A stretch of DNA of 64,000 nucleotides from Sphingorhabdus sp. 109 (GTDB lineage: Bacteria > Pseudomonadota > Alphaproteobacteria > Sphingomonadales > Sphingomonadaceae): assembly GCF_902506555.1 (NCBI RefSeq), contig NZ_LR732707.1, positions 2,069,290 to 2,133,289 on the forward strand, given 5' to 3'. Below the pieces are notes generated by a model. The model saw nothing but the letters and a program-made list of their open reading frames with translations, made no database searches and was not told the DNA's origin. A program made the translations under genes and the position numbers. Positions 53,067 to 62,008 of this stretch are shown one piece after another (position 1 is the first letter of the stretch; every line of letters begins with the position of its first letter).

Positions 53067-53405
53067 ATGCAAAAGCCGCAACAAATATCACTCATGCGGA
53101 TTTATACCGATGAAGCCGCAATGCATGGGGACGAGACAGTTGTTACCACCATTATTGATCGGGCCAGATCTTATGGCCTTCGCGGAGGCACCGTCCTGAA
53201 AGGAATATTGGGGTTCTCCTCGTCTTCCATTGTTCATGAACATCACGCGTTCGGAATTGGCGATAATCCACCGGTGGTGATCGAAATAATCGATGCCCGG
53301 GCACGACTGGAAGATTTCTACACTCAGCTAGACGATCTGCGGGGGATCGGGCTAGTCAGCCTCGAAAAGGTTGATGTTCTCACGCGAGCGGCAGAACAGA
53401 AATGA
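53067..53405 (+). CDS. DUF190 protein
   Basis: The 112-residue protein has the DUF190 (PII-like) fold signature: LMRIYTDEAAMHGDETVVT, RARSYGLRGGTVLKGILGFSSS, PVVIEIIDARARLEDFYTQLD. PII-like members bind nucleotides and often lie beside metal or ion transporters such as CrcB or CzcA. GAGAAGGAG precedes the start. Its stop overlaps the P-type ATPase ATG as ATGA, so it probably regulates the ATPase or the pump. Confidence 0.88.
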   Translation: MQKPQQISLMRIYTDEAAMHGDETVVTTIIDRARSYGLRGGTVLKGILGFSSSSIVHEHHAFGIGDNPPVVIEIIDARARLEDFYTQLDDLRGIGLVSLEKVDVLTRAAEQK

Positions 53406-55393
53406 CCGATGAGCACAGCAAGCATTCGGAAAATTCGGATCACTCGCACGGAGGGCTAATCGACAGGCTGCTTGGTGGCCGTGCAGAAATGGTATTTGCA
53501 GGCCTTTGCGGTGCAACCCTTCTTGCCGGATGGCTGGGACCAAAAATCAATCTTCTGCCGGCGAATATTGGGTTCTGGTTTTTGGTAGCGGCCTATTTTT
53601 TCGGCGGCTATTTTACGATATTGGAAGCCTTCGAAAAAATCAGAAATCGAAAATTTGAAATAGATTTTCTCATGATCGTTGCCGCCGGCGGGGCGGCGTG
53701 GCTCGGGGCATGGGCAGAGGGAGCATTTCTATTATTCCTGTTCAGCATCGGCCATGCACTTGAAAATTATGCAATGGCCCGCGCGCGCAATGCCATATCC
53801 GCACTGTCTGACCTTGCTCCCGAGGAGGCGGTGGTCCGCAGGGATGGAGAGGAATTGCGATTGCCCGTGGCCGAGTTGGTAATCGGCGATATTGTAATCA
53901 TCCGCTCCAACGAGCGACTTCCAGCAGACGGTTTTGTTGTCAAAGGGGCGAGCAGCGTCAACCAGGCTCCCATAACCGGTGAGAGCGTCCCGGTCGACAA
54001 GCGTCCGGTCGACAATGCTGCAGCGGCGGCCAAAGCAGCCGATAAAGTCAAATCCGAACATAGGGTTTTCGCCGGATCCATAAACGGAAGCGGTAGCCTC
54101 GAAGTGCAAGTCACCCGATTGGCGTCGGAAACCACATTGGCCCGGGTTGTCGAAATGGTGAACGATGCGGAGACGCGTCAATCGCCAACGCAGAGCTTCA
54201 CCAATAAGTTTGAGCGGATTTTTGTGCCGGTTGTCATTCTGCTTGCAATCGCAACTGGATTTTCTTGGTTGGTGATAGACGAGCCAGTCTCCGATAGCAT
54301 TTACAGGGCGATGGCAGTCCTCGTTGCCGCCAGCCCCTGTGCGCTGGCTATTGCAACACCCAGCGCTGTTTTAAGCGGGATTGCCCGTGCAGCGCGGGGC
54401 GGCGTTCTCATAAAGGGCGGCGCGCCTCTCGAGATGCTGGGTAAGCTTGATTCGATCGCTTTTGACAAAACCGGGACCCTTACGATTGGCGAACCGGAGT
54501 TAGTCGAAACGGTGCCTTTCGGAGAAATTGGAGCAGACGAACTCATCGCTATTTCTGCCGCTGTCGAAGTGCATAGTGATCACCCTCTGGCGCAAGCTAT
54601 TGTGCGTGCTGCAGAAAAACGCCTCGGATCATCGGATCTGATCGCTACAAATTTTCAGAGCATAACGGGCAAAGGCGTTACTGCCAAAATCAATGGCGAA
54701 AAGGTCTTGATAGGAAAAGCGGGGCTGTTTCTCGACGATGATCAGGATTCGCTTCCTGAAGATGTCGCCCAAAAAGTCACCGAAATGTCTTCACGCGGTC
54801 GCACCACCATGATTGTCAGGCGTGGCGGCAAATTTATTGGCGTTCTCGGCCTCATGGATACGCCCCGCGCTGCAGCGTCCGAAGTGATAAACAAGCTCCG
54901 GTCTATTGGAATCTCACGGATGATGATGATTTCTGGCGACAATCAGAAAGTCGCCGACGCGATCGCCCTGGAAGTAGGTCTTGACGAAGCCTTTGGTGAC
55001 CTAATGCCGGATGACAAGGTCGAGAAAATTGCTCAACTGAGCGATCAGGGCGGAGTGGCGATGGTTGGTGATGGTGTGAACGATGCCCCCGCGATGGCAA
55101 ATGCGACTGTTGGAATAGCCATGGGAGCCGCCGGTTCCGATGTCGCGCTTGAAACGGCAGATATCGCGTTAATGGCAGATGATCTGGCAACATTGCCTTT
55201 TGCCGTTGGTCTCAGCAGATCGACAAGTAGCATTATCCGTCAAAATCTTTGGATCAGTCTCGGCGTGGTGGCCGTATTGATCCCGGCAACACTCTTCGGC
55301 CTGGGGATCGGCCCCGCTGTCGTGATGCATGAAGGATCGACGCTTGTCGTGGTCATAAATGCCTTGCGGCTGCTGGGATATAAGGAAAGTTAA
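53402..55393 (+). CDS. P1B-4 type metal-transporting ATPase (SPC motif)
   Basis: This 663-residue P1B ATPase carries the SPC membrane motif (S311-P312-C313) instead of CPC, which places it in the P1B-4 group (CzcP/CtpD-like, Co/Zn/Fe). Phosphorylation Asp is in DKTGTLT (D355). HP motif is VHSDHPLAQA and the hinge GDGVNDAPAM. The final helix has HEGSTLVVVINALRLL, also typical of P1B-4. There is no HMA domain, but the N-terminus is His-rich (HSKHSENSDHSHGG). It likely exports Co2+ or Zn2+. Confidence 0.93.
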   Translation: MTDEHSKHSENSDHSHGGLIDRLLGGRAEMVFAGLCGATLLAGWLGPKINLLPANIGFWFLVAAYFFGGYFTILEAFEKIRNRKFEIDFLMIVAAGGAAWLGAWAEGAFLLFLFSIGHALENYAMARARNAISALSDLAPEEAVVRRDGEELRLPVAELVIGDIVIIRSNERLPADGFVVKGASSVNQAPITGESVPVDKRPVDNAAAAAKAADKVKSEHRVFAGSINGSGSLEVQVTRLASETTLARVVEMVNDAETRQSPTQSFTNKFERIFVPVVILLAIATGFSWLVIDEPVSDSIYRAMAVLVAASPCALAIATPSAVLSGIARAARGGVLIKGGAPLEMLGKLDSIAFDKTGTLTIGEPELVETVPFGEIGADELIAISAAVEVHSDHPLAQAIVRAAEKRLGSSDLIATNFQSITGKGVTAKINGEKVLIGKAGLFLDDDQDSLPEDVAQKVTEMSSRGRTTMIVRRGGKFIGVLGLMDTPRAAASEVINKLRSIGISRMMMISGDNQKVADAIALEVGLDEAFGDLMPDDKVEKIAQLSDQGGVAMVGDGVNDAPAMANATVGIAMGAAGSDVALETADIALMADDLATLPFAVGLSRSTSSIIRQNLWISLGVVAVLIPATLFGLGIGPAVVMHEGSTLVVVINALRLLGYKES

Positions 55394-55519
55394 TCGGTGC
55401 GGCCATCATGCCGGTCGTGCTCATGGATGGAAGAGCGAGAGCCTGTTGAATATCAGATTTGAGCCGAGTTTAATGCAATCAAGCAGGGTTGACCCAAAAC
55501 GCAAAAAACGAGTGAAGAT

Positions 55520-56188
55520 ATGAGCGTTCGTCTAAAGATATTTCAGCGCGGTTTCGAATTGATACCATCATTCATTCTAGCCGGAATTTTCTTGGTATTC
55601 TGGTCGAAGGTGGCGAAAGGTCATTTAGATGCAATAGATAGAACCCTTTTGCTTGCTTTTCGATCGCCGAGAAATTCGGATATACTGATGGGCCCGGACT
55701 GGCTGCTCCAATTTGTCCGCAATATCACCTTTTTGGGAGATTCAACCTTCCTGCTTCTGGTCATATTTGCCGTATCATTCTTTCTGATCGCCAAAAAAGC
55801 CTATTTCAATGCATTCTTGTTGCCCGCTTTGTCTCTCAGTGGATTTTGGGCAGTATCCTTATTAAAAGATTTTTTCGGCAGGCCGCGACCTGCGATTGTA
55901 GAATATCTTTCTGTTCCCAATTCAGCGAGTTTTCCAAGCGGCCATGCCGCGAACTCGACTATCGCCTATATCCTTACCGCACTGGCGCTATTTAAACTCG
56001 TGCCAGGCCGATATGCACGTTTTTCCCTGATTTGTGGTGCGCTATTATTGGCTGTCTTGATCGGCACGTCGAGGATTGCCTTGGGCGTCCATTGGCCAAG
56101 CGATGTGCTGGGCGGTTGGATTTTTGGGCTCAGTTGGTGCTGTTTGTGGCTATTGAAAAATAGTAGAACAGATGCGCAATACATCTAA
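55520..56188 (+). CDS. PAP2-family phosphatase
   Basis: This 222-residue membrane phosphatase has the three PAP2 motifs: KDFFGRPRP, PSGHAANST and SRIALGVHWPSDVLGG, with about six helices. PAP2 enzymes release phosphate from lipid phosphates such as undecaprenyl pyrophosphate. In pbr-type operons a PAP2 protein (PbrB) supplies phosphate that precipitates exported lead, which fits the linked PbrT-like and P-type ATPase genes. The gap upstream (126 bases) suggests a separate promoter or read-through. Confidence 0.9.
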   Translation: MSVRLKIFQRGFELIPSFILAGIFLVFWSKVAKGHLDAIDRTLLLAFRSPRNSDILMGPDWLLQFVRNITFLGDSTFLLLVIFAVSFFLIAKKAYFNAFLLPALSLSGFWAVSLLKDFFGRPRPAIVEYLSVPNSASFPSGHAANSTIAYILTALALFKLVPGRYARFSLICGALLLAVLIGTSRIALGVHWPSDVLGGWIFGLSWCCLWLLKNSRTDAQYI

Positions 56189-56288
56189 AACCACTGCCAC
56201 GCCAAGCCAACGCGATGAACACTCAATCAATCGCTGACGGGGGACATAATCTATTGCGATTCAACAGGTCCTTTACAAAATTCAGAAT

Positions 56289-56305
56289 ATAGGGTAGCCC
56301 CCTAT
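56289..56305. promoter_or_regulatory. RcnR/DmeR-like operator
   Basis: ATAGGG TAGCC CCCTAT forms a short inverted repeat of the TACTGGGGG type bound by RcnR/CsoR-family repressors. It ends three bases before the ATG at 56309, so it lies in the promoter or leader of dmeR-dmeF and would allow autorepression. Confidence 0.6.
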
Positions 56306-56308
56306 GCT

Positions 56309-56584
56309 ATGTCACATACATCGGATGATAAAAAGCTTCTGGCGCGCGTCAGCCGCCTTAAAGGGCAACTAGAAGCCATTGAGCGGGCTTTGGAAAACAA
56401 GGCTCCTTGCGGTGAGATACTCAATCTTGTCGCCTCGGTTCGAGGAGCCGTAAATGGGCTTACCGTGGAATTGATTGAGGATCATGTCCGCGAACATGTC
56501 TCCAATCCTGAAACGGACACTGATGAAGCGCGCGCTCAAGGCGCGACAGATCTGATCCAGGTTATCCGGACATATTTGAAATGA
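56309..56584 (+). CDS. dmeR: RcnR/FrmR-family repressor (DmeR)
   Basis: The 91-residue all-helical repressor carries the metal ligands of the RcnR group at H3, C34, H59 and H63, equivalent to H3-C35-H60-H64 of RcnR, and the W-box-like LARVSRLKGQLEAIERALE helix. It should bind the G/C-tract operator upstream and release it with Ni or Co (or formaldehyde in FrmR members). Its stop overlaps the dmeF start as ATGA. Confidence 0.88.
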   Translation: MSHTSDDKKLLARVSRLKGQLEAIERALENKAPCGEILNLVASVRGAVNGLTVELIEDHVREHVSNPETDTDEARAQGATDLIQVIRTYLK

Positions 56585-57540
56585 TAACCTCCGAAGCTGC
56601 AACTCAAGCCGGACACGAACATGATCACGTATTTTTAGGCCAAAATCACGAACGGAACGAACGCCGGACCTGGTTCGTTATTGCCCTGACCAGCGTGATG
56701 ATGGTTGTCGAGATTGCAGCCGGGACAATTTACGGTTCGATGGCGCTGGTCGCCGATGGCTGGCATATGTCCACGCACGCCGCTGCGATGCTGATCGCTG
56801 CGCTCGCCTATCTATATGCACGCCGCAATGCCAAGAACCCCCGCTTCACATTCGGCACCGGCAAGGTGGGGGACCTTGCAGCTTTCGCCAGCGCAATTGT
56901 TCTGGCGTTGGTTGCGCTACTGATAGGATGGGAAAGTGTCGTCAGACTGGCAAATCCGATCCCGATCAGCTTCCCCCAGGCAATCTTCGTGGCCATCATT
57001 GGCCTAATTGTGAATCTGGTCAGTGCTTGGTTTCTCCGCGACGATCATGATCATCATCATGGGGACAGCCATCATCACGATCATAGCCACGATCACGACC
57101 ATCATGCTGAACACCATGGCCGGGACCAAAATCTGCGCGCTGCTTATCTCCATGTGCTGGCTGATGCTCTAACATCGGTATTGGCAATAATTGCGCTGAT
57201 AGCCGGCAGCATCTACGGATGGATATGGCTTGACCCGCTCATGGGTATCGTCGGTTCGCTTGTCATTGCGCGCTGGTCATGGGGTTTGATGCGCGATACC
57301 GGCTCAACGATGCTGGATTACAGAAAAGCGGGCGACCCAGTCTCAGCAAAAATCCGCTCGATCATCGAGGAAGCTGGAGACAAAATCTCCGACCTGCATG
57401 TCTGGCAACTGGGTCCAGGACACCATGCCGCTATTGTAGCAGTCATTACGGAAAGTGATACAGCCCCCGCTGTTTATCGCGAGAGACTGGCCGAAACCGT
57501 GGGGCTTTCTCATATCACCGTGGAAGTGAATCCAGCTTAG
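56581..57540 (+). CDS. dmeF: CDF-type Co/Ni exporter DmeF
   Basis: The 319-residue CDF has six helices, HxxxD in GWHMSTHAAAML and HVLADALTSV, a cytoplasmic C-terminal domain (KISDLHVWQLGPGHHAAI), and a His/Asp-rich loop (DDHDHHHGDSHHHDHSHDHD) between helices IV and V. This build is that of DmeF, which exports Co2+ and Ni2+. It is translationally coupled to dmeR. Confidence 0.93.
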   Translation: MITSEAATQAGHEHDHVFLGQNHERNERRTWFVIALTSVMMVVEIAAGTIYGSMALVADGWHMSTHAAAMLIAALAYLYARRNAKNPRFTFGTGKVGDLAAFASAIVLALVALLIGWESVVRLANPIPISFPQAIFVAIIGLIVNLVSAWFLRDDHDHHHGDSHHHDHSHDHDHHAEHHGRDQNLRAAYLHVLADALTSVLAIIALIAGSIYGWIWLDPLMGIVGSLVIARWSWGLMRDTGSTMLDYRKAGDPVSAKIRSIIEEAGDKISDLHVWQLGPGHHAAIVAVITESDTAPAVYRERLAETVGLSHITVEVNPA

Positions 57541-57561: not shown

Positions 57562-58110
57562 ATGGAAAACCTGTTTCTCATTGTAGCTCTTGCTGTGGGC
57601 TTGGCGATGGACGCCTTTGCGGTGGCGGTTGCTCAAGGGGCTGCAGGACATAATTCCATGTTTCACGCCACTCGAACGGGAATGGCATTTGGCGTAGCGC
57701 AGGGCATCATGCCATTTCTGGGATGGGCCCTTGGAATAGCTTTTGTTTCGGAGATCAGCGCTTATGATCACTGGATTGCTCTCATTCTGCTCAGCGGTTT
57801 AGGGTTAAAAATGCTTTGGGAAGCGCTGGGCAGGAACGAAAGAGATGCGGTGTCCAGTCTCTCAGGCTGGGCGCTGGGAACGGCTGCGATAGCAACGAGC
57901 ATAGACGCCTTTGCTGCCGGCATCATGCTGCCTGCTCTTGGCCTTCCGGTTTTACTGGCCTGTGTTATTATTGGGACAGTTACAGCTTTGCTTTCCAGCT
58001 TGGGCGTGATGATCGGCGGAATGGCAAGCTCGCGCATCGGGAGACATGCCGAAGTCGCAGGAGGCGTCATTCTCATTGGCCTGGGAATCAAAATCTTCGT
58101 CGAACACTAG
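57562..58110 (+). CDS. mntP: Manganese exporter MntP
   Basis: The 182-residue protein has six helices and two inverted repeats, each with an Asp in a conserved helix (AVGLAMDAFAVAVAQGA and ATSIDAFAAGIMLPA), the MntP signature. It exports Mn2+. It lies 21 bases after dmeF, so it is cotranscribed and no manganese riboswitch fits in between. Confidence 0.92.
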   Translation: MENLFLIVALAVGLAMDAFAVAVAQGAAGHNSMFHATRTGMAFGVAQGIMPFLGWALGIAFVSEISAYDHWIALILLSGLGLKMLWEALGRNERDAVSSLSGWALGTAAIATSIDAFAAGIMLPALGLPVLLACVIIGTVTALLSSLGVMIGGMASSRIGRHAEVAGGVILIGLGIKIFVEH

Positions 58111-58250: not shown

Positions 58251-58392
58251 TGGCGGCTTCCAATGTTCGGTTGTGCGAAAGCAGAGGTCATCGGTTTGTT
58301 CACTTTAACGACCTCCAACGATTTAATTTCGATCTTCAAAGTTATAGCAGTTTACCTCACAACATCGAGCCAATATCGGAACCAACCGATGG
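58251..58392 (+). repeat. Direct repeat copy A, at the end of the MerA-like gene
   Basis: This 142-bp segment aligns without gaps to 61278-61419; I count 99 identical positions (about 70 percent). It starts TGGCGGCTTCCAATGTTC. Its right end contains the last codons of the MerA-like gene (PSVGSDIGSML) and about 106 bases of downstream DNA. The rest of the 246-base space after mntP holds no gene. Confidence 0.75.
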
Positions 58393-59715
58393 ATAGGCGC
58401 TCACCATTTTTTTCAGGTCGCTGGTGGTCAAATCAAGCCGCATCGCCAGACTGAAGAAATTGATGATTTCGGCATATTCCGGCCCCAGCAAATGCGCGCC
58501 CAATATCTTGTCGGTTTCATCGTCGATGATGACTTTGGTTGCAGCGCAGGTCTCCCCCACCCGAAGATTGGAATACCAGCCGCTTGTATCGTTTGTCGCG
58601 ATGCGCAGCTTGTAACCGGCCGCTTTTGCTTCTTCTTCCAGCATGCCCACGCGCGCCAGTTCGGGTATCGTAAATACCACTGTGGGAACGCCTTTATAGT
58701 CCGGTTTGGCATGATTGCCTTTCAGCATATTTGACGCAGCCACCTTGCCTTCAAACACGGCCACCGGCGTGAGCGGTGCACCTTTGGTGTCCGCCGCATC
58801 ACCCGCTGCATAAATTGACGGATTGGAGATGCTTTGCAGAAATTCATTCACTTTGACGCCGTGGGCGCTGGAATCGACGCCCGCCTTGTCCAGATCGAGA
58901 TAGTCGATCGCAGGAACGCGCCCCGCGCCATGCACGATCAGATCAACCGAATATTTTTGCGTGTTGCCGTCGACATCAAGGGTAGCCGAATAGCCGCTAC
59001 CTTCTTGGGCGATGGAGACGAGACTGGTCTTCTGAACCACCTCGATTCCTGCCTCTTTGCTTCGCTCCAGCAATTTATCGACAAGATCGGGATCAAATCC
59101 CTTGAGCGCACGCTCGCCGCGATCAATGATCTGAATGTCGCTGCCCGCGCGCGCCGCGATATGAGCGAACTCGAAGGAGATGAACCCGCCACCGACAAAC
59201 AAGATCTTTTTCGGGAGGCTCTCCAGTTCCAGAAACTCTGTGCTATCAATGAGATACTGCGCCCCAGGCAAATCAATTTTTCGGGGCTTTGCACCTGTAG
59301 CAATCAGCACCTTCTTCGCTTCCAGCAGCGTATTACCGCTAATCTCGATTTTATTTTTGCCGATAAATTTTGCGCTGCCGTGCAACGTGGTGACACCGTT
59401 CACATCGAGTCCAGATTCTATTTTTGGCGGCATTTTTTCCGTGAATGTCCGCTTGAACGCCATCAGGTCCGACCAGTTGATAGCCAGGCTGCCGGGCTCT
59501 ATGCCCTTGCCCTTCATCAAGGAAGCAGCGTCGAATATTTCGGCGCCGCGCCTCAACATCTTTTTGGGGTCGCATCCTCTAAGGGCACATGTGCCGCCAT
59601 AGGGTAGCTCGTCCACGACTGCGACTGACCAGCCAGCTGACGCACATTTGTTAGCCGCGGTGACGGCCGCCATGCCGACGCCCAGAACAACAAGATCGAA
59701 TTTTTGTGTTTCCAT
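58357..59715 (-). CDS. MerA-like FAD disulfide reductase without the C-terminal CC
   Basis: The 452-residue pyridine nucleotide-disulfide oxidoreductase has FAD-binding VLGVGMAAVTAANKCASAG, redox-active GGTCALRGCDPKK (C43/C48), NAD(P)-binding ILFVGGGFISFEFAHIAARAGS and a dimerisation domain ending PSVGSDIGSML. MerA has an N-terminal HMA domain and a C-terminal vicinal Cys pair that hands Hg2+ over; both are absent. It is the last gene of the merT-merP-GDCCVxC operon, so it is the likely mercuric reductase, or a thiol reductase serving the operon. It could also be dihydrolipoamide- or glutathione-reductase-like. Confidence 0.85.
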   Translation of the reverse strand: METQKFDLVVLGVGMAAVTAANKCASAGWSVAVVDELPYGGTCALRGCDPKKMLRRGAEIFDAASLMKGKGIEPGSLAINWSDLMAFKRTFTEKMPPKIESGLDVNGVTTLHGSAKFIGKNKIEISGNTLLEAKKVLIATGAKPRKIDLPGAQYLIDSTEFLELESLPKKILFVGGGFISFEFAHIAARAGSDIQIIDRGERALKGFDPDLVDKLLERSKEAGIEVVQKTSLVSIAQEGSGYSATLDVDGNTQKYSVDLIVHGAGRVPAIDYLDLDKAGVDSSAHGVKVNEFLQSISNPSIYAAGDAADTKGAPLTPVAVFEGKVAASNMLKGNHAKPDYKGVPTVVFTIPELARVGMLEEEAKAAGYKLRIATNDTSGWYSNLRVGETCAATKVIIDDETDKILGAHLLGPEYAEIINFFSLAMRLDLTTSDLKKMVSAYPSVGSDIGSML

Positions 59716-59730
59716 TTGAATCCCTCAATC

Positions 59731-59949
59731 TCAGCAACAGGACGCGATTGCGCCAGATGCCTGAGCCTCCTGAATGGGCGGACACGGAACGGTGCCAAAG
59801 GAGCAGTAGACACAGCAATCGCCCGCATTGGGTCGCAAAACAATCTTGCACCCCTTGCAGTCATAGAAGAACTGACAGGCATCGGTCGGCATGGTCTCGG
59901 TTTCCTGATGCCCGCAATCAGGGCAGGTCAATCTGGATTGAGGCTGCAT
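59731..59949 (-). CDS. GDCCVxC cysteine-rich small protein
   Basis: This 72-residue protein has eleven cysteines, including CPDC at 9-12, CKGC at 31-34, the signature GDCCVYCSFGTVPCPP (C45, C46, C49, C56) and a C-terminal CC (71-72). GDCCVxC proteins often lie in mer operons (and some are selenoproteins). It probably binds Hg2+. Its ATG overlaps the merP stop as TGATG, and the reductase gene follows 15 bases later. Confidence 0.88.
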   Translation of the reverse strand: MQPQSRLTCPDCGHQETETMPTDACQFFYDCKGCKIVLRPNAGDCCVYCSFGTVPCPPIQEAQASGAIASCC

Positions 59950-60302
59950 CAGCGATCCGCTCCATCAGCCACTATGCTGGCTGGATAACCGGCGTTGGTC
60001 GATGCAGAAGCAATTGCGGATGCATTTGCCAGTTTGGGATCAAAGGTCACTGTTGCGGTTTTTGCCTGAAAATCGACATCGACAGAAGACACGCCGCTGA
60101 CCTTGCCCATCGCCTTCTTGACTGTAATCGGACAGGCGGCGCAGGTCATTTTTTCGATATCGAATGTTTCAGTTTTTGGGGCATTCTGAGATGCCGCTTC
60201 TGCAACGGCTTGAGCACCGGACGTCGGCAACAATGCCACCGCTCCCAGTCCGCCTGCTCCAAGAGCGACAACGACTGTAAAAATGATGTAAGCAGGTTTC
60301 AT
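59949..60302 (-). CDS. merP: Periplasmic mercury-binding protein MerP
   Basis: The 117-residue protein has a signal peptide (cleavage about 30), a linker, and an HMA domain with MTCAACPITVKKAM, the CxxC mercury site. It passes Hg2+ to MerT. TTAGGAGAAAG precedes ATG 60302. The frame is open upstream, but that part overlaps merT and has no start context. Confidence 0.92.
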   Translation of the reverse strand: MKPAYIIFTVVVALGAGGLGAVALLPTSGAQAVAEAASQNAPKTETFDIEKMTCAACPITVKKAMGKVSGVSSVDVDFQAKTATVTFDPKLANASAIASASTNAGYPASIVADGADR

Positions 60303-60312
60303 AATCTTTCTC

Positions 60313-60711
60313 CTAATAAAAATACGGTGCCCACCAATCGATTGTGATGGATAGAGCGATGAGCAATGTTCCCACCCAGAGAGCGGTTTTCGTGACGATG
60401 GTGGATTGTGGTCGGGCACAATATGAGCCTTCTTCACAGGCAGGTTTTGTCCGAAAATAGACATGCCAAAAACCCGCAGCCAGAAACCCGAGGGTCACTG
60501 ACACAAAATACCACTTATAGGGTTCGAGCGCAGTTAGATTTCCGATCCACGCTCCGCTAACTCCAAGTGTTACAAGGACGAGTGGTGCGATGCAGCAGGA
60601 CGATGCCAATATAGCCCCGGAGATGCCGCCAACAGCCCACCAACTGCGTTTGTCCGGTGATGGAGCAGGCATTTCTGTCTGGATAGTCCCTGGCAAAATA
60701 TACTCTTTCAT
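60313..60711 (-). CDS. merT: Mercury transporter MerT
   Basis: The 132-residue membrane protein has three helices, the inner-face vicinal pair in ILASSCCIAPLVLVTLGVSG and the cytoplasmic-loop Cys pair ACEEGSYC. It carries Hg2+ into the cytoplasm for reduction. ATG 60711 follows the merR-merT promoter. It is the first gene of the mer operon. Confidence 0.93.
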   Translation of the reverse strand: MKEYILPGTIQTEMPAPSPDKRSWWAVGGISGAILASSCCIAPLVLVTLGVSGAWIGNLTALEPYKWYFVSVTLGFLAAGFWHVYFRTKPACEEGSYCARPQSTIVTKTALWVGTLLIALSITIDWWAPYFY

Positions 60712-60735: not shown

Positions 60736-60766
60736 ACTATACTCTCTGTAGTAACTACAGGAACAA
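60736..60766 (-). promoter_or_regulatory. MerR-type divergent operator/promoter
   Basis: On the minus strand TTGTTC (60766-60761) and TATAGT (60741-60736) are 19 bases apart. The perfect dyad CTGTAGT-T-ACTACAG (60746-60760) fills the spacer. It would drive merT and be twisted open by MerR with Hg2+; merR lies 10 bases to the other side. Confidence 0.85.
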
Positions 60767-60775
60767 GGACTTTTT

Positions 60776-61174
60776 ATGCAACCATCTGTCAAGCGCGGAA
60801 AACTGGCGAAAATCGCCGGATGTAACATCGAAACGATAAGGTATTACGAGAATATCGAGCTGTTACGCGCCGTAGATCGCACGAGCAGTGGTCACCGGGT
60901 CTATTCGTCCGATGATCAGGCGCGGTTACGCTTCATTCTGCGCGCACGGGAACTCGGTTTTTCAATTGCAGAGCTGAGAGGCCTGCTCGGCCTGGTCGAT
61001 TCCAACGAATATACGTGCGGCGAAGTGCTGGCCGTAACCAACAATCACATTACCACTATTCAACAGAAAATATCCGACCTGAAACGTTTGGAGCAAACAT
61101 TGTCGGACATGGCGCAGAAATGCGATGGCGGAGAAGTCCCGGACTGCGCCATCGTTGATGCAATGTTTCACTGA
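60776..61174 (+). CDS. merR: MerR mercury-responsive regulator
   Basis: The 132-residue protein has a winged helix (KIAGCNIETIRYYENIELL), a dimerisation helix and metal-site cysteines in EYTCGEVLAV and QKCDGGEVPDC. MerR itself uses three cysteines placed like this; the spacing of the last two is one residue shorter here. AAGGA precedes the ATG. It is divergent from merT across the operator. Confidence 0.9.
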   Translation: MQPSVKRGKLAKIAGCNIETIRYYENIELLRAVDRTSSGHRVYSSDDQARLRFILRARELGFSIAELRGLLGLVDSNEYTCGEVLAVTNNHITTIQQKISDLKRLEQTLSDMAQKCDGGEVPDCAIVDAMFH

Positions 61175-61277: not shown

Positions 61278-61419
61278 TGGCGGCTTCCAATGTTCAGTTG
61301 AGTGGAAGCAGGCACCGCTTGCTAGTCTACGGTTAGCATCTCCAACCATATAGTTTCAATCTTCGCAACTACAGCAGCTCAACTCTCAATATTGATCCAA
61401 CATCAGAACTAACAGACGG
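61278..61419 (-). pseudogene. Direct repeat copy B: relic of a second MerA-like gene end
   Basis: This 142-bp segment is the diverged partner of 58251-58392. On the minus strand positions 61419-61387 read PSVSSDVGSIL, equivalent to the PSVGSDIGSML terminus of the MerA-like gene, but the frame has a stop just before and none at the right place. So it keeps the end and downstream flank of a lost reductase gene. The whole 61175-61483 gap contains no other gene. Confidence 0.75.
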
Positions 61420-61483: not shown

Positions 61484-62008
61484 TTAGTCGGCGGGATTTA
61501 GCTCGCCTTCAAATTTTGGGACGGCGCGCGCCGAGGCTTCTGCATCTGTCGTTGCCTTGCCATTTTGATTGATATCGTTGATCAACCATTCCATTTCTTT
61601 GATTTCTCTCCGTTGGGCTCTGATAATTCCATCGGCTAGCTCGCGCACTCTTTTATCTTCAATATTGGCGCGCTCACTTGTCAGTATGGCAATGCTATGA
61701 TGAGGTATCATCGCCTTTTGCCACGCCTGATCGGAAACCGTATCCTGCGATCGGACAAGAAACAAGGAGCCGGCAAATATGAGAACTGCGCCGCCCAATA
61801 TCATCGCATTCTTGCGCTTATCATCATACATGCCAAGCATAAATAACAACATGATAATCGCCATCGCAGCGCCCATGTAGATTGCCATCCATGTGCGTGT
61901 CTCACTAAAATATACGTGGTCGAATGCATAGGTGTTGAGATACATCAGCCCGAACATCGCAAGCGTTGAAGTCAGTATCATGACGATGAAACGTGTGTAT
62001 TTACCCAT
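61484..62008 (-). CDS. DUF305 membrane protein
   Basis: The 174-residue protein has three helices (about 9-27, 40-60, 69-86) followed by a short DUF305 domain with MIPHHSIAILTSERANI and IIRAQRREIKEMEWLI, in which the HH and later His/Glu residues are likely metal ligands. DUF305 proteins are common in copper and silver clusters. It lies at the end of the minus-strand copper-type set. Confidence 0.88.
   Translation of the reverse strand: MGKYTRFIVMILTSTLAMFGLMYLNTYAFDHVYFSETRTWMAIYMGAAMAIIMLLFMLGMYDDKRKNAMILGGAVLIFAGSLFLVRSQDTVSDQAWQKAMIPHHSIAILTSERANIEDKRVRELADGIIRAQRREIKEMEWLINDINQNGKATTDAEASARAVPKFEGELNPAD

Follow-up and report, generated by a model that had tools for sequence, protein, structure and literature searches.

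A predicted mercury operon of Sphingorhabdus sp. 109 that joins a GbsMerA-type reductase to a cysteine-rich GDCCVxC protein

We analyzed a 64,000-nucleotide stretch of the Sphingorhabdus sp. 109 genome (contig NZ_LR732707.1, positions 2,069,290 to 2,133,289), referred to here as the window and numbered from its first base, in which an apparent mercury (mer) operon joins a flavin-dependent reductase to a small cysteine-rich protein of the GDCCVxC family. What we report on the genes present, the layout of the promoter, the clade, the conserved residues, and the distribution was computed here. The operon runs merT, merP, GDCCVxC, reductase, all on the minus strand, with 10 nucleotides (nt) between merT and merP, a 1-nt overlap between merP and the GDCCVxC gene, and 15 nt between the latter and the reductase gene. 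MerT (60313..60711; 132 residues) carries Cys39-Cys40 and Cys92/Cys98; it passes the PF02411 gathering cutoff (100.9 bits, cutoff 32.9) and scores 100.3 bits against the NCBIfam equivalog, under the cutoff of 150. The MerP-like periplasmic protein (59949..60302; 117 residues) has an HMA domain (57.6 bits) with the motif MTCAAC (Cys54, Cys57) and reaches 83.6 bits against TIGR02052 MerP, under the cutoff of 92.55. The GDCCVxC protein (59731..59949) matches NF041374 with 105.1 bits (cutoff, 40), and the reductase gene (58357..59715) encodes a 452-residue enzyme of the flavin adenine dinucleotide (FAD)/NAD(P)H type.

A merR-type gene (60776..61174, plus strand) diverges from the operon. Its best NCBIfam match is TIGR02051 MerR at 114.5 bits, below the cutoff of 150.85. 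Cys81, Cys116, and Cys124 of this 132-residue protein are invariant between it and the regulators of three further mer operons (L188, L203, and L190), one of them a regulator annotated as Hg(II)-responsive MerR; the window protein thus carries the three putative Hg-binding cysteines of an Hg-sensing MerR. A scripted search placed a MerR-type merT promoter at 60736..60766 on the minus strand, with a −35 element TTGTTC, a 19-bp spacer, and a −10 element TATAGT. Spacers of 19 bp are a hallmark of MerR-family promoters, and the one found here contains a 15-nt palindrome, CTGTAGTTACTACAG, at 60746-60760.

The reductase has four cysteines (24, 43, 48, and 390). Cys43 and Cys48 form a CXXXXC redox motif in the active site, GGTCALRGC, and the C terminus, AYPSVGSDIGSML, has no vicinal cysteine pair (CC). 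Pfam models for Pyr_redox_2, Pyr_redox_dim, and overlapping Rossmann folds were matched, and a Pfam search found no HMA domain in the protein, an N-terminal HMA domain not being universal in MerA. NCBIfam scores were spread over the disulfide reductases (glutathione reductase, 321.4 bits; dihydrolipoyl dehydrogenase, 303.9 bits; MerA, 299.9 bits), and none of the best 25 of 68 matches exceeded its own cutoff. The shortfall holds for the canonical MerA models (TIGR02053, 299.9 of 454.45 bits; NF010311, 179.9 of 600 bits) and likewise for those of glutathione reductase (321.4 of 480 and 303.2 of 606 bits). Among solved structures, phmmer gave 8k40 (459.5 bits), then a glutathione oxidoreductase (214.9 bits) and the mercuric reductase 5x1y (213.2 bits). 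The 8k40 structure is GbsMerA of Gelidibacter salicanalis, from a merT/P operon (PMC10587081). It is 45% identical to the window reductase, versus 27 to 31% for the canonical MerA proteins compared. A predicted model of the reductase (predicted local distance difference test [pLDDT] score, 86.2) was matched best by 8k41/8k40 in Foldseek (template modeling [TM] score, 0.94), followed by dihydrolipoyl dehydrogenases (TM, 0.90) and MerA 5x1y (TM, 0.88). In a tree of 66 rows (an initial 92 rows, cut to 70 by a 90% identity filter, less four distant ones), the window reductase and GbsMerA fell in a 22-row set (support, 100/95), and nine CC-bearing canonical MerA proteins formed a separate group (support, 100/98). 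Tyr441 and Ser446 stand where glutathione reductase has its catalytic His-Glu pair, as in GbsMerA; Cys43, Cys48, Asp49, and Tyr441 are invariant in an alignment of 19 homologues, and Ser446 is nearly so. Because it shares clade, fold match, and conserved residues with GbsMerA, the CC-less reductase of the window can be assigned on sequence grounds to a known kind of enzyme, the GbsMerA type.

Both NmerA and the CC motif are missing from GbsMerA according to its authors, and its His-Glu pair is replaced by Tyr437 and Ser442, with Y437F inactive (PMC10587081). Purified GbsMerA, with no partner, oxidized reduced nicotinamide adenine dinucleotide phosphate (NADPH) with HgCl2 at 474.7 µmol/min/mg, with AgNO3 at 236.5, with glutathione disulfide (GSSG) at 97.3, and with MnCl2 at 69.0 µmol/min/mg; Escherichia coli producing it showed higher Hg tolerance and a smaller inhibition zone (PMC10587081). 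NF041374 was not found in E. coli among 14 control genomes. By analogy with GbsMerA, the window reductase would be expected to oxidize NADPH in an Hg-dependent manner and to raise tolerance.

The GDCCVxC protein has 11 cysteines in 72 residues (9, 12, 25, 31, 34, 45, 46, 49, 56, 71, and 72). The NF041374 match covers residues 5 to 61, so that the model does not extend to the CC tail. In two alignments of 38 and 55 rows, both hand-picked for diversity, nine cysteines (9, 12, 25, 31, 34, 45, 46, 49, and 56) are invariant, and the last two are common without being invariant. The GDCC motif thus holds a second vicinal pair, Cys45-Cys46, which unlike the terminal pair is invariant in both alignments and which a preliminary description of this locus had missed. 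That description had reported a reductase with neither an HMA domain nor a C-terminal CC and, directly upstream, a 72-residue protein with 11 cysteines ending in CC; the open reading frames and the domain searches bear out both observations. An AlphaFold model of the GDCCVxC protein (pLDDT, 86.2) has two strands, two helices, and a poorly defined tail (pLDDT, about 58). A fold search with it gave no match at an E value of ≤0.001; many of the 50 weak matches listed are, judged by their names, zinc-bearing proteins, and a profile search gave one weak match, RNA polymerase II chain 1qyp (E value, 0.004), which we take to be a zinc ribbon. The CxxC motifs at 9-12 and 31-34 suggest a zinc-ribbon-like protein, a label based on the CxxC..CxxC spacing and these weak matches. 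In two forms of the family (L263/G503 and L264/G592), both without a CC tail, a TGA codon for selenocysteine (Sec) stands at the position of Cys25; a third above-cutoff match (G418) was flagged with an internal TGA. The Global Ocean Sampling selenoproteome reports the family as hypothetical protein GOS_B, a selenoprotein (PMC2398784), and PMC13188914 equates GOS_B with NF041374. It occurs in 347 of 72,556 public plasmid records with no function named, and the word GDCCVxC was not found in any paper in our literature search. Apparent natural fusions were also considered. Long frames joining GDCCVxC to MerT or the reductase in eight loci (L245-L252) were rejected by eye, since GDCCVxC starts near its own Met after apparent read-through of other frames, and the 336 residues preceding the reductase in L254 were rejected likewise.

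We surveyed 298 genomes of the window's taxonomic family, counting a reductase at an E value of ≤1e-80. GDCCVxC was present in 57 and the reductase in 38; 34 genomes had both, 4 the reductase only, 23 GDCCVxC only, and 237 neither (Fisher P of 4e-25, uncorrected for kinship). The two genes adjoin, within a few kilobases, in 34 of the 34 genomes with both, Sphingorhabdus sp. 109 itself being counted from the window; G290 carries one broken copy of the reductase. Of the four reductase-only genomes (G022, 67% complete; G082, 66% complete; G068; and G233), the last three have reductases that are just 36 to 37% identical and fall outside the clade in the tree. TIGR02053 MerA (E value of ≤1e-140) was found in 9 of the 298 genomes, none of them among the 38 with the reductase; four of the nine also have GDCCVxC, on other contigs. 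Profile searches of the Sphingorhabdus sp. 109 genome itself found one MerT and one GDCCVxC and no TIGR02053 MerA at that threshold. In a sample of 385 genomes of the class, 62 had GDCCVxC (60 over the cutoff), 8 had a reductase, and 5 had both. The pair is adjacent in two of these five (G000 and G391), the other three carrying only an outgroup type of 35 to 40% identity; 57 of the 62 GDCCVxC genomes have no such reductase. Three of the five clade-member genomes of this sample (G352, G362, and G641) lack GDCCVxC, and in G352 a CC-type MerA lies 2 kb from the clade reductase. The pairing is genuine in the window's family, yet not obligate.

We also assembled 204 loci with GDCCVxC, which encode 153 distinct GDCCVxC proteins; for some of the loci, the flank was just 1.5 kb. 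A MerT match lay in the same stretch for 100 of the 153 and a reductase for 42; a CC-type MerA was found beside none of the 153 within these flanks. Sixty-nine of 88 reductase loci have GDCCVxC, a share biased upwards because most loci were found through GDCCVxC. Tails were compared in 115 distinct proteins from the window and a set of GDCCVxC loci (120 minus five that lacked either the motif or an intact end). A CC after the conserved core was found in 38 of 40 proteins beside a reductase, the exceptions being L091 and L153, versus 60 of 75 without (P = 0.05, uncorrected for kinship); among clusters at 85% identity, a CC majority was seen in 9 of 9 beside a reductase and 17 of 22 without. The exact CC terminus occurs in 14 of the 115, four of them beside a reductase. 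From these counts, by protein and by cluster, we rejected a tail dedicated to the reductase.

Beyond the family, each gene keeps other company. Plasmid gene tables are incomplete, and "no reductase" here means none annotated within 4.5 to 6 kb. By that definition, GDCCVxC follows MerT or MerP with no reductase in Tn5563 of p10265-KPC and two plasmids of the same gene order, and in Hymenobacter, Methylobacterium, Rhodanobacter, Burkholderia contaminans, and Salinibacter. In Agrobacterium, one copy comes after merF; for three other copies, the annotation shows no mer gene in the vicinity, and the order in Croceicoccus is MerC, MerT, GDCCVxC, reductase. The Tn5563 gene lies after merP at L188:4983-5195, with the same position in the two like plasmids (L280 and L281); the accessible text of PMC4785139 and PMC4447125 names merR, merT, and merP alone and does not list it. 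Tn5563a lowered the Hg MIC (minimum inhibitory concentration) in six strains and raised it in two of Pseudomonas, which the authors credit to chromosomal merA (PMC4447125). If Tn5563a carries GDCCVxC, as its other copies lead us to expect, then GDCCVxC alone would not be a sufficient Hg trap.

Thirteen plasmid contexts of the reductase clade were fetched, and a profile scan found GDCCVxC in none of these stretches. Six have merA in the same gene run, each of the six MerA proteins ending in SCCAG or SCCAS. The clade reductase directly follows canonical merA in Roseovarius and Paracoccus, comes one small gene later in Phaeobacter and Thioclava, and sits in a merA-merH-merB operon in M. abscessus. 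Six further contexts combine a MerR-type regulator with a small gene that is thioredoxin-like, named as alkylmercury lyase, or unnamed, and in one (L267) the MerR-type regulator accompanies the reductase alone, with nothing else between them. The actinobacterial plasmids L202, L205, L265-L268, and L271 carry a compact cassette of a MerR-type regulator and a GbsMerA-clade reductase, mostly with a thioredoxin-like gene; L202 and L205 also have a small open reading frame with a hydrophobic stretch that contains a CC pair, and the reductase of L271 (Leifsonia) is broken. These distributions make GDCCVxC look like MerT's partner and the reductase like an independent enzyme adopted by several kinds of mer operon.

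We lean toward a working mercury operon in which the reductase acts through its own disulfide and GDCCVxC is an Hg(II) acceptor behind MerT, its tail being no obligate part of the enzyme; we hold this reading to be moderately probable. MerR would sense Hg(II) and open the merT promoter, and MerP and MerT would import Hg(II). The GDCCVxC protein, cytosolic and zinc-ribbon-like, would accept or buffer the Hg(II) leaving MerT through a reactive Cys25 and the GDCCVxC cluster. The reductase would then reduce Hg(II) with NADPH via Cys43-Cys48, and Tyr441 and Asp49 would do the work for which canonical MerA also relies on its CC pair. Hg may reach the enzyme as small thiol complexes and perhaps also from GDCCVxC; that GDCCVxC binds Hg, and by what route it hands Hg over to the reductase, we infer.

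Several points weigh against this reading. GbsMerA has a long branch and an unlike composition in the tree, which makes its exact placement less sure, and its Tyr174 is Phe in the window reductase. Hidden Markov model scores slightly favor glutathione reductase over MerA (both, as given above, under their cutoffs). Clade reductases also sit in operons with a complete merA, and a second Hg reductase would be superfluous there. Our literature search found no assay of any GDCCVxC protein and none for the window proteins. The GbsMerA assay tracked NADPH loss with HgCl2, its methods, as far as the accessible text goes, naming no thiol and no Hg(0) measurement (PMC10587081), and the reported rate is far higher than the MerA range of 1.05 to 50 µmol/min/mg (PMC4500099). 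By analogy with GbsMerA, a CC pair supplied in trans would not be required in principle with HgCl2; its help in a thiol-rich cell would be compatible with the assay. Canonical MerA mutants without the CC pair remain able to reduce small Hg halide complexes and fail with thiol complexes. The C-terminal cysteines of MerA reportedly (Engst and Miller, 1998) matter for thiol-bound Hg and not for small halide complexes. Given this role of the CC pair with thiol-bound Hg, the activity of GbsMerA in an assay that lists no thiol leaves the thiol case undecided.

GDCCVxC might instead be a general cytosolic Hg(II) receiver that replaces NmerA and the CC tail, so that an operon would have a CC-bearing MerA or GDCCVxC but not the two together. 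With a GbsMerA-type reductase, it would make up a two-protein mercuric reductase in which Hg is handed over by way of the terminal CC and of Cys25, a residue that is Sec in some forms. We treat this as a tentative possibility, on the unlikely side. GDCCVxC may have a looser complementary role, since none of the 153 distinct proteins lies near a CC-type MerA, and this either-or pattern is the most interesting remainder of the split-enzyme idea discussed below.

It is also unlikely, in our estimate, that the flavoenzyme is an accessory thiol-disulfide reductase of the MerK type, one that does not itself reduce Hg(II) and that, under Hg stress, keeps GDCCVxC or a low-molecular-weight thiol in the reduced state. 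Glutathione reductase is its top NCBIfam score, and its relatives lie next to or close to canonical merA in the four genera named above and share an operon with it in M. abscessus. The name MerK is sometimes given to glutathione reductase genes in mer operons (PMC11227200, citing earlier work), and GbsMerA shows some GSSG activity (PMC10587081). Set against this is the replacement of the glutathione reductase His-Glu pair by Tyr441 and Ser446. Close relatives also occur in actinobacteria, once with a MerR-type regulator alone, and actinobacteria make mycothiol rather than glutathione. HgCl2, moreover, beats GSSG as a GbsMerA substrate (PMC10587081).

The preliminary description had proposed a split enzyme, with the GDCCVxC protein delivering Hg(II) in trans to the reductase. 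In such a design, the CC tail of GDCCVxC would dock at the reductase dimer interface and hand Hg(II) to Cys43-Cys48 in place of the C-terminal pair of MerA, and only the two proteins together would make up one mercuric reductase. The genomic pair behind this idea is real: 34 of the 38 reductase genomes of the family have GDCCVxC (57 of 298 overall), always adjacent, the CC tail is nearly constant beside the reductase, and no CC-type MerA was found in the loci of the 153 distinct GDCCVxC proteins. The thiol case, left unsettled by the HgCl2 assay, speaks for it too. The tail as a stand-in for the MerA pair is nevertheless unsupported. It is common in GDCCVxC proteins without a reductase, two reductase-linked proteins lack it, the clade reductases of the 13 plasmid contexts have no GDCCVxC, the two Sec forms mark Cys25 and have no tail, and GbsMerA is active alone on HgCl2 (PMC10587081). 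We consider this form of the split design improbable. The proposed co-occurrence holds in the window's family and gives way outside it, where clade reductases accompany merA or a MerR-type regulator without GDCCVxC. The description had also reckoned with a reductase that works as well alone; outside the family, GbsMerA partly does so, with HgCl2 and without thiols. Its further claim, that an operon importing Hg(II) needs a reductase or a trap, agrees with the Tn5563a MIC data (PMC4447125), provided that Tn5563a carries GDCCVxC. Its interpretation is, overall, partly supported.

Uptake without reduction, as in a partial mer module like that of Tn5563 with MerT, MerP, and GDCCVxC binding or importing Hg, the reductase serving another purpose, and cells gaining little or growing more sensitive, would fit the repeated occurrence of MerT(P)-GDCCVxC modules near which no reductase is annotated and the lowered MICs with Tn5563a (PMC4447125; its GDCCVxC presumed from other copies), but a reductase gene starting 15 nt after GDCCVxC and kept alongside it in 34 family genomes makes this very improbable.

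A published MerA census demands a C-terminal vicinal cysteine pair (PMC8261052), and surveys of this kind would miss GbsMerA-type reductases. The mercury-reducing capacity of sphingomonads, other alphaproteobacteria, and some actinobacteria may therefore be undercounted. The position of GDCCVxC behind MerT, together with the forms with Sec for Cys25, makes a simple Hg-transfer test possible.

Around the operon, a repeat links 61278-61419 with 58251-58392 (70% identity over 145 columns within the window; E value, 8e-13), with a 34-nt core that is 88% alike. The outer copy, upstream of merR on the minus strand (61278..61419), reads as the decayed 3′ end of a second reductase (PSVSSDVGSIL), so that the locus may formerly have had another copy or may have been rearranged. 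Metal resistance surroundings at 53402-57540, 57562-58110, and 61484-62008 hold a P-type ATPase, a small FrmR/CsoR-like regulator, and a cation diffusion facilitator (CDF) transporter, all named from reading of the sequence alone; a MntP-like protein (117.4 bits; cutoff, 214) and a CopM-like protein (36.8 bits; cutoff, 90) are also nearby. The last 10,267 bp of the window match Parasphingorhabdus flavimaris SW-151 (L106) at 99.99%.

Among known systems, the GbsMerA operon likewise combines MerT/P with a reductase that lacks NmerA and CC, is 45% identical, and has the same Cys-Cys, Asp, and Tyr. It differs in being controlled by ArsR, according to its authors, and in having a hypothetical gene after the reductase (PMC10587081), where the window has MerR control and GDCCVxC upstream, and in Tyr174, which is Phe in the window enzyme. 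Canonical MerA (Tn501 type, TIGR02053) shares the FAD disulfide-reductase fold, CXXXXC, the Tyr for the glutathione reductase His, and the mer operon setting, whereas the window reductase is 27 to 31% identical to it, lacks CC and NmerA, belongs to a separate clade, and scores under the TIGR02053 cutoff. MerK, likened here by description and not by sequence, is also a disulfide-reductase-like gene within mer operons, and roseobacter relatives of the window enzyme follow merA, but the window has no merA. GOS_B is the same family as the window GDCCVxC protein and has Sec forms; no function is stated for it in the accessible text of PMC2398784 and PMC13188914. SaoC, the Cys-Cys-COOH selenoprotein NF040734, is a small protein likewise named for a terminal Cys-Cys; it belongs to another family, is likened by description, and its group has been linked to metal or metalloid resistance (PMC13188914). 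The Tn5563 mer module has MerR, MerT, MerP, and GDCCVxC in the order seen in the window, without a reductase and with a GDCCVxC protein that ends in ..GCCS.

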